Assembly (NCBI RefSeq): GCF_000426725.1
Contig: NZ_AUFX01000006.1
Location: forward strand, 124,001-188,000
Source: Sporocytophaga myxococcoides DSM 11118
GTDB taxonomy: Bacteria; Bacteroidota; Bacteroidia; Cytophagales; Cytophagaceae
Direction of reading: 5' to 3'
DNA length: 64,000 bases
The notes beneath the pieces are model-generated. The model was not told the origin of the DNA. It saw nothing but the letters and a program-made list of their open reading frames with translations, and did not search any database. Position numbers and translations under genes: made by a program. Positions 51,574-56,579 of this stretch are shown in pieces (the first letter of the stretch is position 1; each line of letters opens with the position of its first letter).

Positions 51574-52965
51574 TTAGTAAGCTTTGTTTTTTGGATCAAA
51601 CTCTGTCCATCCTTGCAACCAGTTATTAGAAGCATCGAATGCGCCTACGAAAGAAGTTTGCTCAAGACCTGCAGGTACTGATTTAGAACCTGAAAGAAGA
51701 GGTGAACCAGCTTTCAATAATAGATTTGGGTTAGAAAGTTCAAAGATATTTGCAACATTTGAACTTGAATCTATTTTCTGATTAACTACACCAGCAAAGT
51801 AATCTGCTAAGTTAAATCCTGCAAGGGTTCTGTTGTTAGCGGCAAAACCGGTAGTATCGTTTCCGTTACCAGCAGTGAAAGCTGCAAGTGTTTTGTATCT
51901 GCTTAGGAAGTTACCAGAGAATTTTGATCCAGAGTTAGCTTTCTCAAAGTTCACTGCAGTTGGAAAACCAATGATAACGCTGTTATAGATTGACTCTGAT
52001 GTATTTCTTCTTAGGTGAGCTCCCTGACCATAACTTCCGCTGATATCCCCGAAAGTATAGTTGTAAATTTTCCCTTTTGCAGCTACTGATTTCACTTTGA
52101 AAGCATATGGCCCTAGAACTGTAATGTTTGAAAACTGAGCAGCTGTCAGAGGCTGACCAGCTCCACCATCTTTATCATTATCAGACTCAAAACCATTTGA
52201 AAGAGAAATATCAGCAATAGAAGGATCTCTTAATACGATACCATACTGAACATTTCCAGAGAAACCGTTATCTGTATCGAAATCATCATCCCAGCTTCTG
52301 TATGCTACAAGATATTTAGCATTTACAGTTCCTCCGAACCATTCGAAGGCATCGTCACCAGAGAAGGATACCTGAACGTGATCAACTTTAGTTGAACGAC
52401 CAACACTTCCGAAAGTTAAACCGTTCAGCTCGTTATCAGGAGAAAGAGCTATCCCTGCGAACTCAACTCTTACATATTGGAATTCGCCTGAATTGTCATC
52501 AGCTTCTGTTCCACCATGTTTACCATTTTCACCAGCCTGTGCACTGATACCTTCAATGTTTACGTTTGTACCTCCATTGTTAGGAGCTTTACCAAGGATA
52601 ACGATTCCCCCCCAATCGCCATAGTTTTTATAACCGCTAGGAGCAGCTGATGTAAAGATAATAGGGTTGCTAGACGTTCCTGTTGCATGGATTTTTGCGC
52701 CTCTGTCAATCACAAGAGCACCTTTGGTTACTTTATCTCCCATTATGACAGTTCCTGCAGGGATAGTTAGTTCTGCTGGAGCAGCAACATAAACATTGCC
52801 TCTCAGGATATATTTTTTGCCAGCCTCAAGTGTCAAATTTTGAGTGATTGTACCTTCAAGAGTAACATCATTTGAAGGAGTTACTTTTGAATCGTCTTTA
52901 TCTTTTTTACATGCAAAATTCACCGCCATTAATGCAGCAAGAAAAATAGATGATAATCTTTTCAT
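51574..52965 (-). CDS. beta-helix surface lipoprotein paired with a TonB receptor
   Basis: 463 aa. A signal peptide and lipobox-like FAC (residue 19) precede a KKDKDD linker. The mature part is beta-strand-rich with a right-handed parallel beta-helix look (YVAAPAELTIPAGTVIMGD, WGGIVILGKAPNNGG, TKVDHVQVSFSGDDAFEWFGGTVNAKYLVAYRS) and several Asp/Asn-rich turns (DDDFDTDNG, ESDNDKDGG) that could bind Ca2+. Such proteins are often annotated loosely in Bacteroidota. It lies beside a TonB-dependent receptor and has its own promoter region with TTAACA repeats. Confidence 0.7.
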   Translation of the reverse strand: MKRLSSIFLAALMAVNFACKKDKDDSKVTPSNDVTLEGTITQNLTLEAGKKYILRGNVYVAAPAELTIPAGTVIMGDKVTKGALVIDRGAKIHATGTSSNPIIFTSAAPSGYKNYGDWGGIVILGKAPNNGGTNVNIEGISAQAGENGKHGGTEADDNSGEFQYVRVEFAGIALSPDNELNGLTFGSVGRSTKVDHVQVSFSGDDAFEWFGGTVNAKYLVAYRSWDDDFDTDNGFSGNVQYGIVLRDPSIADISLSNGFESDNDKDGGAGQPLTAAQFSNITVLGPYAFKVKSVAAKGKIYNYTFGDISGSYGQGAHLRRNTSESIYNSVIIGFPTAVNFEKANSGSKFSGNFLSRYKTLAAFTAGNGNDTTGFAANNRTLAGFNLADYFAGVVNQKIDSSSNVANIFELSNPNLLLKAGSPLLSGSKSVPAGLEQTSFVGAFDASNNWLQGWTEFDPKNKAY

Positions 52966-53003
52966 AATTTAATTTATTGTTTGTTTTAACCTTTAAAGCT
53001 TCA

Positions 53004-53011
53004 CAAAGCTA
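53004..53011 (-). promoter_or_regulatory. -7 element of the beta-helix lipoprotein gene
   Basis: Minus-strand TAGCTTTG is a perfect TAnnTTTG, 38 bases before the start at 52965. It lies just downstream of the repeat array at 53021-53058, which takes the place of the -33 element. Confidence 0.6.
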
Positions 53012-53020
53012 AGCTCCCAG

Positions 53021-53058
53021 TATTAAGCAAATGTTAAGCACTTGTTAGTAAATGTTAA
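53021..53058 (-). promoter_or_regulatory. PhoB/PhoP-box-like direct repeats upstream of the lipoprotein
   Basis: On the minus strand the hexamers are TTAACA (53058), CTAACA (53048), TTAACA (53037) and TTAATA (53026), spaced 10, 11 and 11 bases. TTAACA-like hexamers at 11-bp spacing are the pattern of PhoP boxes in Bacillus, and 11-bp repeats also of PhoB. The array ends 9 bases from the -7 element, the usual place for an OmpR-family activator. That it responds to phosphate is inference. Confidence 0.55.
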
Positions 53059-53062
53059 AATC

Positions 53063-53097
53063 AAAAGGCCTTTGTCGTTAATCGACAAAGGCCTTTT
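53063..53097 (-). terminator. terminator of the TonB receptor gene
   Basis: A perfect 15-bp stem AAAAGGCCTTTGTCG with complement and a 5-base loop, plus T runs, immediately after the stop at 53121. It separates the receptor from the lipoprotein promoter. Confidence 0.9.
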
Positions 53098-53120
53098 ATT
53101 ATACTATGAAATTTTTTAAG

Positions 53121-55928
53121 TTAAAAAGAATATGATATACCAGCTGTTATATACTGACCTCTACCGTTCTTCTGAAAATACCCATCAACAGAGGTGATCT
53201 TTGAATCAAAGTTTGAATCATACATTAGTTTATACTGTTGATTAAACAAATCCTGTATACCAAATCTTACCAGAAATCTTTCAGTGATACCTTTAGTTAT
53301 AGTTAAATCCATAACGTTTCTTGGCATCTCATAAATGGTTGGAGTATTGTTATTTCCAACAAGGAATATTCTCTTTCCAATTACGTTATAAAGTAATGTA
53401 ACTTGCCAACGGGTATCAGGGTTGTTATAATAAAGACCTGTATTGATAACATATGGAGACTGCCCCTGCATTGGTCTTGAATTTTCTTTGATATCTGTAT
53501 TTCCAAGATCTACACGGCTTCTTATAACAGAAGCATTTGACACAAGACTAAGGTTTTCTAAAAATTTATTATTGGAAATAAATGACAATGATTTTCTCAA
53601 CTCCAGCTCTGCTCCCACACTGCTTGATTTAGGTGCATTACCATAAGTGAATACAGGTAAAGAAGCGCCTTGTTCATTATAGATCTCAATTGGATTTATA
53701 AAGCTTTTATAGAAAACGCCTAAAGCTATATTCTCAGAAGGTGTAGGATATAGCTCCCATCTAAGATCATAGTTATTAATGTTTGCGATTTTCAATTTAG
53801 GATTACCGACATAGTTCACGTTATATTCAAAGTCATAATAAGAGAAAGGTGCAAGCTCTCTGAAATTACCTCTGTTAACAGTTCTGCTGTATGCTGCTCT
53901 TAAAAGCATCTTTTCACTGAAAGTATAGCTTAGGTTTGCAAATGGCAGTAAATTGGTATTGGTAGAATTAACTTTGTCACCTGCGTTGAACGATGGTGTT
54001 GTCAACTCCTGATGATAGTTTTCTAAGCGTAGTCCTGTTGAAAGATTGAAATTGTTAAGAAACCCAAACGAAGTTCCAAAATAACCTGCTGATAAAAAGC
54101 TATTAGCTTGATAAGCATCAGTCAAGTTGGTTCCCTCTTCTATTACCAGCTTGTTTGGAGCTAAATTTCCCGGACCAAATATCTGGTCAACAGGCTGAGA
54201 ATTAAAATTCTGATTTTCCGGTAATGAAGGATTCTCAAAATCTGCCCATTTATAAGACAACCATCTTGCTTCAAAATCTCTTTTCTTATATTCAAAATAA
54301 TAACCACCTTTTACTATGAATGGCCTTGCTGTATCAGAATCTTTAAAATTATGCTCAAGATCTCCGCTGGTCATCACCAGGTTTTCATTCATATTTGAAT
54401 AAAATCTTGCAGCATCAAATGTAGAAGCTGAAGATGGAATCTGTATTTGAAAAGCCTCATTTGATCCAGTAGGTCTCTGAGATCTTACTCTTCTGTAATC
54501 AGGTTCATTTCTGTTTATATTACTATAACCTACAGTCCAGTTAAGTTTAGTCTTATCATTAGTAAGGTTATGGTCACCCTGTAACTGGCCCATATAGATT
54601 CCTCTGCTTAAATACCAAATGGCAAGATTTTGCAAATCATATTTATTCATCAGATCAACTCCATTTCTTTCTGTAGTCTGACTAGTTCCTAACCTCGTAT
54701 ATAGATTTCTGAATAAAATTTTATTCCTTGAATTGTACTCAAATGTCCAGTTGGAAATAAGTCCAACGTTAACATTTCTTGAATACTGATCATCACTTAC
54801 ACTTGTTCTCTGAGGAGTATTCTGAGTGCTTTTATCAAATGCATCATATGTAGCTCTTGAAATCTTAAAATATGTATAAGCATTGGTATAATTTACTGAA
54901 GATATGTTTGAAACCTTAACACCTTTCACAAAGAATTTTCTTGAAAGGTTAATATTGAATCTCATATCAGGCAATGCTGTTGTTGATTGTGTGTTCCATG
55001 CATTTTTGAATGACCTACTTACATCAAACAGCTGATTGCTATAGTAGTTTCTTAAATTGTCTTTGGGAAAATCCGATGGAAGACCTCTTTTAGAATCTAC
55101 TCCAATGAAATCTGTTCCGCTGCCTTTTTCAAGATGAAGGTTATTAAAAGTTGTTCCAATCCTGTCAGACAGAGAGAAGCCTATTTGTGTAGCATTGGTA
55201 TCTACAATATTTCTTGTGTAGACTTTGATAACTGCACCGGCAAAATCACCAGGAAGATCTGCAGCTCCTGATTTATATATTAAAAGTCTGTCCAGAAGTC
55301 CGCTTGGTATCACATCGAAAGAAAAGCTTCTTCTGTCAATCTCAGTGCTTGGAGCCATCATATCATTCAGCATAACGGCATTATACCTTTCACTTAATCC
55401 TCTGACAACAACGAATCTATTGTCTACAACAGTTACCCCCGGTATTCTTCTCATTACATCAGCAGTAGTTCTGTCCTGTGATTTACTTATCTGTTCTGCA
55501 GAAACACCGGTAACTACCTCCTCACTTTCTTTAATCTCCTGCACAACAGCTTTTTCACTGTTGGTTACTTTTGTTCCGGTAACAACTACTTCCGCAATTT
55601 GCTCCGGATCCGTTTTCATCTCTATATTAAGCTTTGTAGTTTCGTCCCCTTTGATGATTACATTGTGTACAAACTTATTTTCATAACCAAGGTATTCTAC
55701 CTTGATTGTATAAGTTCCAGGCATTATGCCTTTTATCATGTAATCACCATCAATACCTGTTGCAGTTCCGAGCCCTGCTCCTTCTACAAAGACAGTAGCT
55801 CCGATCAATGATTCACCTAAGGAGTCTTTTACAATTCCTGAGACACTGCCTGTTTGTGCTAATACACTGCTTTGTGCAAAAACAAGAATTGAGAAGAGAA
55901 AAAATAAAATAGAATAATACTTATTCAT
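53121..55928 (-). CDS. TonB-dependent outer-membrane receptor
   Basis: 935 aa. Signal peptide (1-24), then a carboxypeptidase-regulatory-like beta domain (about 26-115, GSVSGIVKDSLGESLIGATVFVEGAGLGTATGIDGDYMIKG), a TonB plug (about 130-260, ADVMRRIPGVTVVDNRFVVVRGLSERYNAVMLNDMMAP) and a 22-strand-type barrel ending in aromatic F (ITAGISYSF). It imports a substrate with TonB energy. There is no SusD beside it; instead a beta-helix lipoprotein is the neighbour. It has its own terminator and a promoter region with 11-bp TTAACA repeats, suggesting control by an OmpR-family regulator. Confidence 0.92.
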   Translation of the reverse strand: MNKYYSILFFLFSILVFAQSSVLAQTGSVSGIVKDSLGESLIGATVFVEGAGLGTATGIDGDYMIKGIMPGTYTIKVEYLGYENKFVHNVIIKGDETTKLNIEMKTDPEQIAEVVVTGTKVTNSEKAVVQEIKESEEVVTGVSAEQISKSQDRTTADVMRRIPGVTVVDNRFVVVRGLSERYNAVMLNDMMAPSTEIDRRSFSFDVIPSGLLDRLLIYKSGAADLPGDFAGAVIKVYTRNIVDTNATQIGFSLSDRIGTTFNNLHLEKGSGTDFIGVDSKRGLPSDFPKDNLRNYYSNQLFDVSRSFKNAWNTQSTTALPDMRFNINLSRKFFVKGVKVSNISSVNYTNAYTYFKISRATYDAFDKSTQNTPQRTSVSDDQYSRNVNVGLISNWTFEYNSRNKILFRNLYTRLGTSQTTERNGVDLMNKYDLQNLAIWYLSRGIYMGQLQGDHNLTNDKTKLNWTVGYSNINRNEPDYRRVRSQRPTGSNEAFQIQIPSSASTFDAARFYSNMNENLVMTSGDLEHNFKDSDTARPFIVKGGYYFEYKKRDFEARWLSYKWADFENPSLPENQNFNSQPVDQIFGPGNLAPNKLVIEEGTNLTDAYQANSFLSAGYFGTSFGFLNNFNLSTGLRLENYHQELTTPSFNAGDKVNSTNTNLLPFANLSYTFSEKMLLRAAYSRTVNRGNFRELAPFSYYDFEYNVNYVGNPKLKIANINNYDLRWELYPTPSENIALGVFYKSFINPIEIYNEQGASLPVFTYGNAPKSSSVGAELELRKSLSFISNNKFLENLSLVSNASVIRSRVDLGNTDIKENSRPMQGQSPYVINTGLYYNNPDTRWQVTLLYNVIGKRIFLVGNNNTPTIYEMPRNVMDLTITKGITERFLVRFGIQDLFNQQYKLMYDSNFDSKITSVDGYFQKNGRGQYITAGISYSF

Positions 55929-55960
55929 ATCAGTTTGGATTTGTTTTTCTTTATCGGCGA

Positions 55961-55968
55961 CAAAATTA
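55961..55968 (-). promoter_or_regulatory. candidate -7 element of the TonB receptor gene
   Basis: Minus-strand TAATTTTG is a TAnnTTTG match 32 bases before the start at 55928. It is 33 bases from the nearest repeat, farther than in the lipoprotein promoter, so the assignment is weaker. Confidence 0.4.
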
Positions 55969-56000
55969 AGTAGAACCGAACTGATAAGACCTCAATAAGC

Positions 56001-56048
56001 AATTAAGGAAATATTAACAAATCATATCTAATGTTAAGACAATGTTAA
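56001..56048 (-). promoter_or_regulatory. PhoB/PhoP-box-like repeats upstream of the TonB receptor
   Basis: On the minus strand two perfect TTAACA hexamers end at 56043 and 56032 (11 bases apart), followed by TTAATA at 56012 and TTAATT at 56001 (11 apart, but displaced from the first pair by 20). They match the array before the lipoprotein gene. Confidence 0.5.
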
Positions 56049-56096
56049 AAGCATGAAAATAAAGAATACATCTTACCTGATGGCTGGACCAACCTC

Positions 56097-56113
56097 TTAA
56101 CAATTTCTTAACA
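56097..56113 (+). promoter_or_regulatory. second TTAACA repeat pair, opposite orientation
   Basis: Plus-strand TTAACA hexamers start at 56097 and 56108, exactly 11 bases apart. No plus-strand gene follows within 600 bp, so this may be an auxiliary site for the receptor promoter or a chance match. Confidence 0.35.
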
Positions 56114-56176
56114 CAAACTTTATGATATGGAAATGATGCAATTGTTTTAAGTGAAGCAAAGATTAGTATTAAATAA

Positions 56177-56211
56177 AAAAGCGAAAGCCCTCTTTAAGAA
56201 CTTTCGCTTTT
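56177..56211 (-). terminator. terminator of the ArsR-type regulator gene
   Basis: Stem AAAAGCGAAAG / CTTTCGCTTTT with a 13-base loop and T run on the minus strand, after the stop at 56232. Confidence 0.85.
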
Positions 56212-56231
56212 CAATCAGATTATTTTTAGAG

Positions 56232-56579
56232 TTAATTCTGTAAAACTTTCTTAGTATTCTCTATTGCTCTGAAAGATTCGTTATAAAATCTGTCCATGAA
56301 AATCTTAGACAATTTGAACTGTTCTTCATCTAGAGAATAATAAACCCTTGGCCCGTCTATCGCACCTTTGATAAGGCCAGCTTCCTTAAGGTCTTTAAGA
56401 TGCTGACTGATAGTTGACTGGGACAATGGAAGTTCATTTACGATACTTCCGCACAAACAAGGCCCTTTCGCAGCTAATAACTCCATAATAGCAACTCGAG
56501 CCGGATGAGCAAGAGCTTTTGCCAATACAGAAATTTTCACCTGATGCGCCTGAAATTCATTCCTTTTTGTAATAGCCAT
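56232..56579 (-). CDS. ArsR-family winged-helix regulator
   Basis: 115 aa. VSVLAKALAHPARVAIMELLAAKGPCLCGSIVNELPLSQSTISQHLKDLKEAGLIKGAIDGPRVYYSLDEE is the HTH domain. Cys41 and Cys43 (CLC) sit where ArsR-type sensors bind metal or arsenite, but a full site is not certain. It is divergent from the MFS exporter gene at 56760 (180 bp) and may regulate it. Confidence 0.88.
   Translation of the reverse strand: MAITKRNEFQAHQVKISVLAKALAHPARVAIMELLAAKGPCLCGSIVNELPLSQSTISQHLKDLKEAGLIKGAIDGPRVYYSLDEEQFKLSKIFMDRFYNESFRAIENTKKVLQN

Follow-up and report, generated by a model that had tools for sequence, protein, structure and literature searches.

The 64-kb stretch of DNA analysed here (the window, part of contig C4 of the 6.34-Mb genome of Sporocytophaga myxococcoides DSM 11118) carries two neighbouring genes on the minus strand, which encode a TonB-dependent outer membrane receptor and a lipoprotein, and arrays of TTAACA-like hexamers lie upstream of both (Table 1). 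With good confidence, we consider these arrays to be PhoB boxes on a phosphate-controlled receptor/lipoprotein pair, because arrays of this kind precede the receptor, pstS and exbB of related genomes far above the background in other open reading frames (ORFs) of the same loci. This confidence concerns the boxes and the phosphate control of the pair, and does not extend to every later mechanistic step.

Features of the receptor/lipoprotein locus

At the lipoprotein promoter, the original prediction had described four hexamers (spacings 10, 11, 11) followed after 9 bases by a perfect TAnnTTTG -7 element, exactly as is found; the hexamers read TTAACA, CTAACA, TTAACA and TTAATA in order (53058-53021, minus strand). 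The two perfect TTAACA copies placed 11 bp apart before the receptor are likewise present (56048-56032, minus strand). A "weaker pair" described in the same region probably corresponds to the array at 56097-56113 and, if so, is in fact a perfect pair on the opposite strand. Its letters are the same as those of the pairs at pstS, at the porin gene and at exbB discussed below, and a perfect array occupies this position in all 4 Sporocytophaga-type rows of our comparison. The claim of a hairpin terminator between the two genes agrees with a folding energy of -24 kcal/mol (z -9.2) at 53098-53062, though the terminator scan did not report this hairpin, probably owing to the small number of T after its stem.

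Neither the lipoprotein nor the next protein downstream has any Pfam match, hence no SusD was seen among the scanned neighbours, as had been proposed for this receptor. The SusC-type model TIGR04056 reaches 61 bits on the receptor (cut-off 368), and with the score this far below the cut-off and SusD absent from the neighbours scanned, membership in the SusCD class was rejected. TIGR01782 (TonB-Xanth-Caul) scores 165 bits (cut-off 310) over residues 113-935. The receptor is 96 and 94% identical to those of two Sporocytophaga metagenome assemblies. Directly upstream of it lies a gene for an ArsR/SmtB-family regulator (56232-56579), with a terminator-like hairpin in between.

Table 1. Coordinates of genes and candidate regulatory elements in the window.
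Feature	Position	Strand	Basis
Lipoprotein gene, 463 aa, signal peptide with Cys19, ElpS-like	51574..52965	-	
-7 element TAGCTTTG, perfect TAnnTTTG, 9 bases past last hexamer	53004..53011	-	
Putative Pho-box array of lipoprotein promoter, four TTAACA-like hexamers, spacings 10, 11, 11	53021..53058	-	
16-bp intergenic hairpin of the receptor/lipoprotein pair, probable terminator	53062..53098	-	folding energy
TonB-dependent receptor, 935 aa; CarbopepD_reg_2, Plug, beta-barrel	53121..55928	-	Pfam/NCBIfam
Putative receptor Pho box, perfect TTAACA-N5-TTAACA, TTAACATTGTCTTAACA	56032..56048	-	
Second perfect array, opposite orientation, TTAACAATTTCTTAACA	56097..56113	+	
Terminator-like hairpin after ArsR-family gene	56176..56212	-	terminator scan

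Conservation, promoter geometry and genome-wide occurrence of the arrays

PhoP boxes of Bacillus consist of TTAACA-type direct repeats about 11 bp apart, and the PhoB box of E. coli stands in for the upstream promoter element and lies about 10 bases from the -10 element. Three traits of a Pho box, i.e., half-site direct repeats about 11 bp apart, presence of the element also before pst genes and a fixed position relative to the promoter core, are found in the present arrays, which, judged by comparison of upstream regions, very probably represent the PhoB box of this group. They differ from the Bacillus and E. coli boxes in being coupled to the TAnnTTTG -7 element of Bacteroidota.

To examine conservation, 19 genomes of the same family were searched for orthologues, and the regions upstream of these (350 bp plus 30) were compared; unless stated otherwise, an array was counted at up to 1 mismatch of 12, on either strand. 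Of the 19 receptor rows, which represent 18 genomes, 16 have an array upstream (15/19 on the sense strand alone; 12/15 outside the genus), as do 14 of 18 rows of pstS, in one case as far away as -346, and 14 of 20 rows of exbB. The lipoprotein is preceded by an array in 8 of 17 rows (5/13 outside the genus). The receptor count excludes L070, a C-terminal fragment that entered only the lipoprotein count, and L072, the paralogue of S. myxococcoides beside a phytase-like gene; the lipoprotein is absent from the rows L066, L069 and L071, where the contigs end, and a second PstS homologue in one genome (G011, L131) and five weak receptor matches (27-28% identity) were left out. As a background, the remaining ORFs of these loci (mechanical ORFs of at least 100 aa) gave 4 with an array among 124, or 4 among 86 where the upstream gap is at least 80 bp. 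For the receptor and the lipoprotein, dinucleotide shuffles served as an additional control: the 19 receptor upstream regions gave a mean of 0.18 rows with a match (at most 1 in 60 rounds), and 0.23 rows would be expected for the 17 lipoprotein regions. For pstS and exbB, other spacings served as control; both have 14 rows at a spacing of 11 and at most 2 at any other. The receptor scan (spacings 7-19) yields 16 rows at 11 and next 5 at 12, while spacings of 20, 22 and 31 are also raised (8, 7 and 10 rows), as expected from longer arrays; for the lipoprotein, 8 rows are at 11 and 3 at 10.

Beyond the family, 20 loci from 20 families of the phylum were picked by hand among 130 matching genomes. 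Seven of 18 receptors in these loci have an array (spacing 22 gives 5, further spacings 0-2), and none of the 20 lipoproteins has one. The phylum-wide signal thus lies at the receptor and is partial, and of the proposed conservation of the hexamers, the part concerning the receptor holds across genera and in part across families, while that concerning the lipoprotein holds less widely. Transcription from the receptor promoter may extend into the lipoprotein gene in some cases.

The position of the arrays relative to the promoter core was assessed at 65 distinct sense-strand sites (up to 2 mismatches; close relatives unthinned), allowing up to 1 mismatch in the TAnnTTTG-like element. A -7 element follows the last hexamer by 8-11 bases at 27 of these sites, 26 of them at 9 or 10, compared to 4.1 of 65 expected in shuffled downstream bases (highest 12 in 500 rounds). 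The lipoprotein promoter of the window agrees perfectly with this geometry; in the receptor promoters of the genus, the -7 element is not clearly visible.

In the whole genome, exact TTAACA-N5-TTAACA occurs 13 times, versus once for the reversed control pattern. According to inspection of neighbours and family scans, 6 of these 13 sites are at phosphate-linked genes or at the window receptor itself: one each at pstS, a Porin_O_P porin next to the pst operon (in opposite orientation), the exbB operon and a regulator beside a phytase-like gene, and two at the window receptor. A genome search thus places the arrays before phosphate genes, pstS included, and neither of the two refuting conditions open to computation, lack of enrichment at phosphate genes and lack of conservation among relatives, came true. 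With a longer pattern and up to 2 mismatches the genome-wide excess disappears (21 real versus 17 control sites), therefore only near-perfect or conserved sites carry weight; a three-repeat pattern gave 1 site versus 1 in the control. Another of the exact sites (L020, C3:450395) has an RprY-like two-component pair on one side and a divergent 132-aa gene on the other, and cross-regulation at this site is possible. That the hexamers are nothing but functionless, AT-rich chance repeats might be argued from the counts at 2 mismatches and from the 20 lipoproteins of other families, but the 13 exact sites versus 1, the receptor rows compared to their shuffles and the rarity of arrays before background ORFs speak against chance, which is already contradicted by the conservation before receptor, pstS and exbB and appears to us practically negligible as an explanation.

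Phosphate-linked loci and candidate regulators

Box-bearing loci also occur elsewhere in the genome. The first is an exbB-exbD-exbD-tonB-pstS-like-TPR operon (L025, C7:267000-279000) with a perfect array; exbB, tonB, the PstS-like and the TPR gene were identified by family scan, and the exbD genes were named by eye. Of 13 fetched motor-operon loci, 8 retain the PstS-like gene; of the remaining five, two are cut by contig ends and three are without such a gene in the fetched stretch. The second is an island (L018, C2:184000-199000) containing the pst operon with phoU, the Porin_O_P porin, a GH1 enzyme, a glycosyltransferase (PF13528/PF04101), a metallophosphoesterase (PF00149/PF12850) and a PhoB-type regulator with an array of its own (PstS and PhoU by family scan; pstC, pstA and pstB from ORF order and sequence only). 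In a third locus (L023, C6:47480 and following), the gene downstream of a perfect array encodes a 550-aa TPR-type regulator; next come a phytase-like gene, which scores under the cut-off of its model, and another receptor, similar in kind to that of the window.

Eight near full-length OmpR-type matches were found in the genome, two of which are close PhoB-type paralogues (61% identical): the regulator of the pst island (C2:196562) and a more widespread type beside a histidine kinase (C19:1033916). PhoB is the top-scoring NCBIfam model for the former; both candidates remain under the cut-off of the PhoB model, and PhoB is thus a provisional name. Rows of related genomes were divided by eye between the two types, according to the residue preceding RT of the recognition helix. 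All 7 rows of the pst-linked type, from 4 genera, have an array at -73 to -78 before the start (up to 2 mismatches), which is consistent with autoregulation; the 18 rows of the other type have none within 1 mismatch and one within 2. Set aside were L258, a more distant regulator (41%, with a reverse-strand array at 1 mismatch), and the six unrelated regulators of the genome. In one genome (G013), a PhoB-type regulator of this comparison is encoded about 1.6 kb past the lipoprotein match, within one contig.

The number of OmpR-type proteins, the exact site beside the RprY-like pair and the 7 of 13 exact sites that precede genes without evident phosphate link leave room for another regulator of this family (e.g., of the RprY type), which would respond to a different signal such as envelope stress and include the phosphate genes as part of its regulon. 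A broad regulon would also be in line with the 583 candidate genes reported for PhoP of Riemerella anatipestifer by DAP-seq (PMC9603813). Such a regulator seems improbable to us, though: conservation is high before pstS, the exbB-tonB-pstS-like operon and the receptor, and an array is also found before the PhoB-like regulator near pst.

Riemerella PhoP (PhoPR) is a Pho-type response regulator from the same phylum as the present organism, and its sites share TTTAACA as the most conserved nucleotides; a TonB-dependent receptor promoter was included in its gel shifts (PMC9603813). The available text of this account gives no 11-bp repeat geometry or -7 spacing, and PstS is absent from its main text. 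This motif lends published support to a box of this type within the phylum and is the only Bacteroidota Pho box found in a literature search that mostly did not cover subscription journals; the same search yielded no phosphate-linked TonB-ExbBD operon. Thus, neither a box with promoter geometry across Bacteroidota nor a box before a TonB-ExbBD operon with a PstS paralogue was found in this search.

Related receptor/lipoprotein pairs and a proposed phosphorus uptake route

The window lipoprotein matched no Pfam or NCBIfam model, yet among 198 genomes sampled from the phylum, 130 contain a homologue, and further homologues occur on 21 plasmid records, including several from Pseudomonadota. An acidic cluster (DD..E.FGG..N ... 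DDD.DTD) is invariant in 12 aligned lipoprotein rows and present in a shortened form in all 6 plasmid homologues examined; it may bind a metal or ligand. For the beta-helix fold named in the original prediction, Pfam gave no match in the 12 aligned members, and PF13229 matched only the Pseudoalteromonas homologue (25.4 versus a cut-off of 25.9). PDB sequence searches returned nothing relevant, and an AlphaFold2 model, built from an alignment of the window copy and two near-identical copies, has a pLDDT of 31.9.

Co-occurrence of the gene pair elsewhere in Bacteroidota, as anticipated, was seen in 18 of the 20 loci from other families, in which a receptor of the window type lies near the lipoprotein on the same strand; L213 and L228 have no paired receptor beside the lipoprotein. 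The receptor also adjoins the lipoprotein in Hymenobacter and Parabacteroides. In Indioceanicola and Sphingomonas the order is lipoprotein, TonB-dependent receptor, type II secretion genes, and in Pseudoalteromonas it is ExbB, ExbB, ExbD, TonB, TPR, lipoprotein, receptor. The homologues beside type II secretion genes in Alphaproteobacteria (L175 and L178) match the window lipoprotein with E-values of 2e-55 and 3e-36 and the receptor with 6e-57 and 8e-51; Pseudomonadota partners of the receptor range from 2e-61 to 8e-51. No receptor is annotated within 5 kb of a Marinobacter plasmid homologue, and the three loci (L230-L232) of G188, a multi-copy genus of the same class, have lipoprotein homologues without a window-type receptor alongside; therefore, the pairing is not universal. 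In these three homologues, a stretch resembling NW..NWT.F.P....Y was seen by eye near the N-terminus instead of the C-terminus, which suggests a circular permutation. A Hymenobacter plasmid (L179:4935-6368) encodes a clear lipoprotein homologue that carries the label "cell shape-determining protein MreB", probably in error.

As a kind, the pair is already known, since it resembles described pairs of two other organisms. Flavobacterium johnsoniae has PUSIII/PUSIV pairs, Fjoh_3857/Fjoh_3856 (FI) and Fjoh_0545/Fjoh_0546 (FII), in which, as in the window, a TonB-dependent receptor adjoins a lipoprotein and SusD is absent from the pair; these receptor/lipoprotein pairs are strongly induced by phosphate depletion (PMC8115612). 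FI and FII were modelled as polygalacturonase-like, FII is annotated with a pectin-lyase fold (IPR011050), and FI, FII and FIII are reported to be related to the Caulobacter lipoprotein and to be highly induced by phosphate depletion (PMC8115612). The PhoBR operon of F. johnsoniae comprises a glycosyltransferase, OprP, PhoR, PhoB, a receptor and the FII lipoprotein (PMC8115612, Table 1), and the combination of FII with a PF07396 porin and a glycosyltransferase resembles the pst island of the present genome. The phytase-side receptor locus recalls Fjoh_1368, which is listed with a phytase. There are differences as well: plant-associated Bacteroidetes are said to lack PstSABC (PMC8115612), whereas a pst operon is present here, and the window receptor has no match to PF14905, under which Fjoh_0545 is listed. 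A perfect array in the present genome (L024, C6:61862) lies upstream of an outer membrane receptor of this PF14905 type. The terms "Pho box", "promoter" and "motif" are absent from the main text of PMC8115612, and removal of Fjoh_3856 or Fjoh_0546 left colony expansion unaffected (PMC7807042).

In Caulobacter crescentus, the lipoprotein ElpS (CC0170) is made under phosphate starvation and, similar to the window lipoprotein, is encoded next to a receptor (CC0171), followed by gsp genes (PMC2996285). The homologues in Indioceanicola and Sphingomonas share this order, from which the window differs in its reversed gene order and in having no type II secretion genes beside the pair. The Caulobacter PhoB regulon is listed to include TonB-dependent receptors and the secretion system releasing ElpS (PMC11208175); the available part of PMC12872454 contains nothing on ElpS. 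The link between the window and FI/FII consists of the published similarity of FI/FII to ElpS. The idea of an outer membrane uptake pair agrees with these published relatives (PMC8115612, PMC2996285), and the original prediction as a whole is supported in part, namely in its regulatory part.

Several observations weigh against phosphate control of the pair by PhoB. Besides the seven exact sites without evident phosphate link, the array is missing (at 1 mismatch) before the lipoprotein in 9 of 17 family rows, before 11 of 18 receptors of other families and before all of their lipoproteins, and the box of the window receptor has no clear -7 element at 9-10 bases. Both PhoB candidates fall below the cut-off of TIGR02154 (best scores 226 and 221 bits versus 296). 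CC0171 is reported to be constitutive, and deletion of elpS left phosphatase activity unchanged (PMC2996285). Finally, the receptor matches the Pseudomonadota partners no better than its own phytase-side paralogue (E 7e-59), so that its orthology rests on the pairing. The result for the lipoproteins of other families and the comparison with the own paralogue have no bearing on the boxes before pst, exbB and the receptor, and therefore leave our estimates unchanged.

Taken from sequence comparison, the most likely course is that the pair is induced together with the phosphate-uptake genes at low phosphate and imports phosphate or a phosphate-bearing compound such as an organophosphate. Phosphorylated PhoB, for which C2:196562 is the best candidate and C19:1033916 a possible substitute, would bind head-to-tail on the 11-bp repeats and recruit RNA polymerase to the -7 element 9-10 bases downstream, in place of a -33 element. 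The surface lipoprotein, which is ElpS-like and has the invariant acidic cluster, would capture or help process a phosphorus-containing ligand, which the receptor would import, powered by the TonB-ExbB-ExbD system; the same box stands before the motor operon, which also encodes the PstS-like binding protein.

The role of the lipoprotein could also be that of a secreted helper or enzyme, acting through ElpS-like phosphatase activation and not as a lid, while the receptor imports another compound, for example a metal complex. This proposal is compatible with PhoB control of the boxes and competes on mechanism only. Extracellular phosphatase activity increases when ElpS is overproduced, and the protein itself is shed from the surface (PMC2996285); the polygalacturonase-like models of FI and FII (PMC8115612) point in the same direction. 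The same-strand pairing in 18 of 20 loci argues for joint work at the membrane, albeit not for a lid as such, and we lean slightly against a secreted helper.

More far-reaching, and rather doubtful at present, is the notion that Bacteroidota own a dedicated TonB-powered outer membrane route for phosphorus, in which one type of PhoB box governs the motor, the PstS-like protein and a lidded receptor. Such a route would have an ExbB-ExbD-ExbD-TonB motor reserved for it, along with a periplasmic PstS-like protein belonging to that motor, and its receptor would be capped by an ElpS-type lipoprotein as a second class of lid, unrelated to SusD. A comparable module exists in Pseudoalteromonas, with an ExbB-ExbB-ExbD-TonB-TPR motor adjoining.

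In starved F. johnsoniae, few proteins are induced as strongly as the low-phosphate receptor/lipoprotein pairs (PMC8115612), and the lipoprotein family spans two phyla. A box that is readable from sequence would make Pho regulons mappable in this part of Bacteroidota, and would connect receptor/lipoprotein pairs with one particular TonB motor and with a PstS-like protein.

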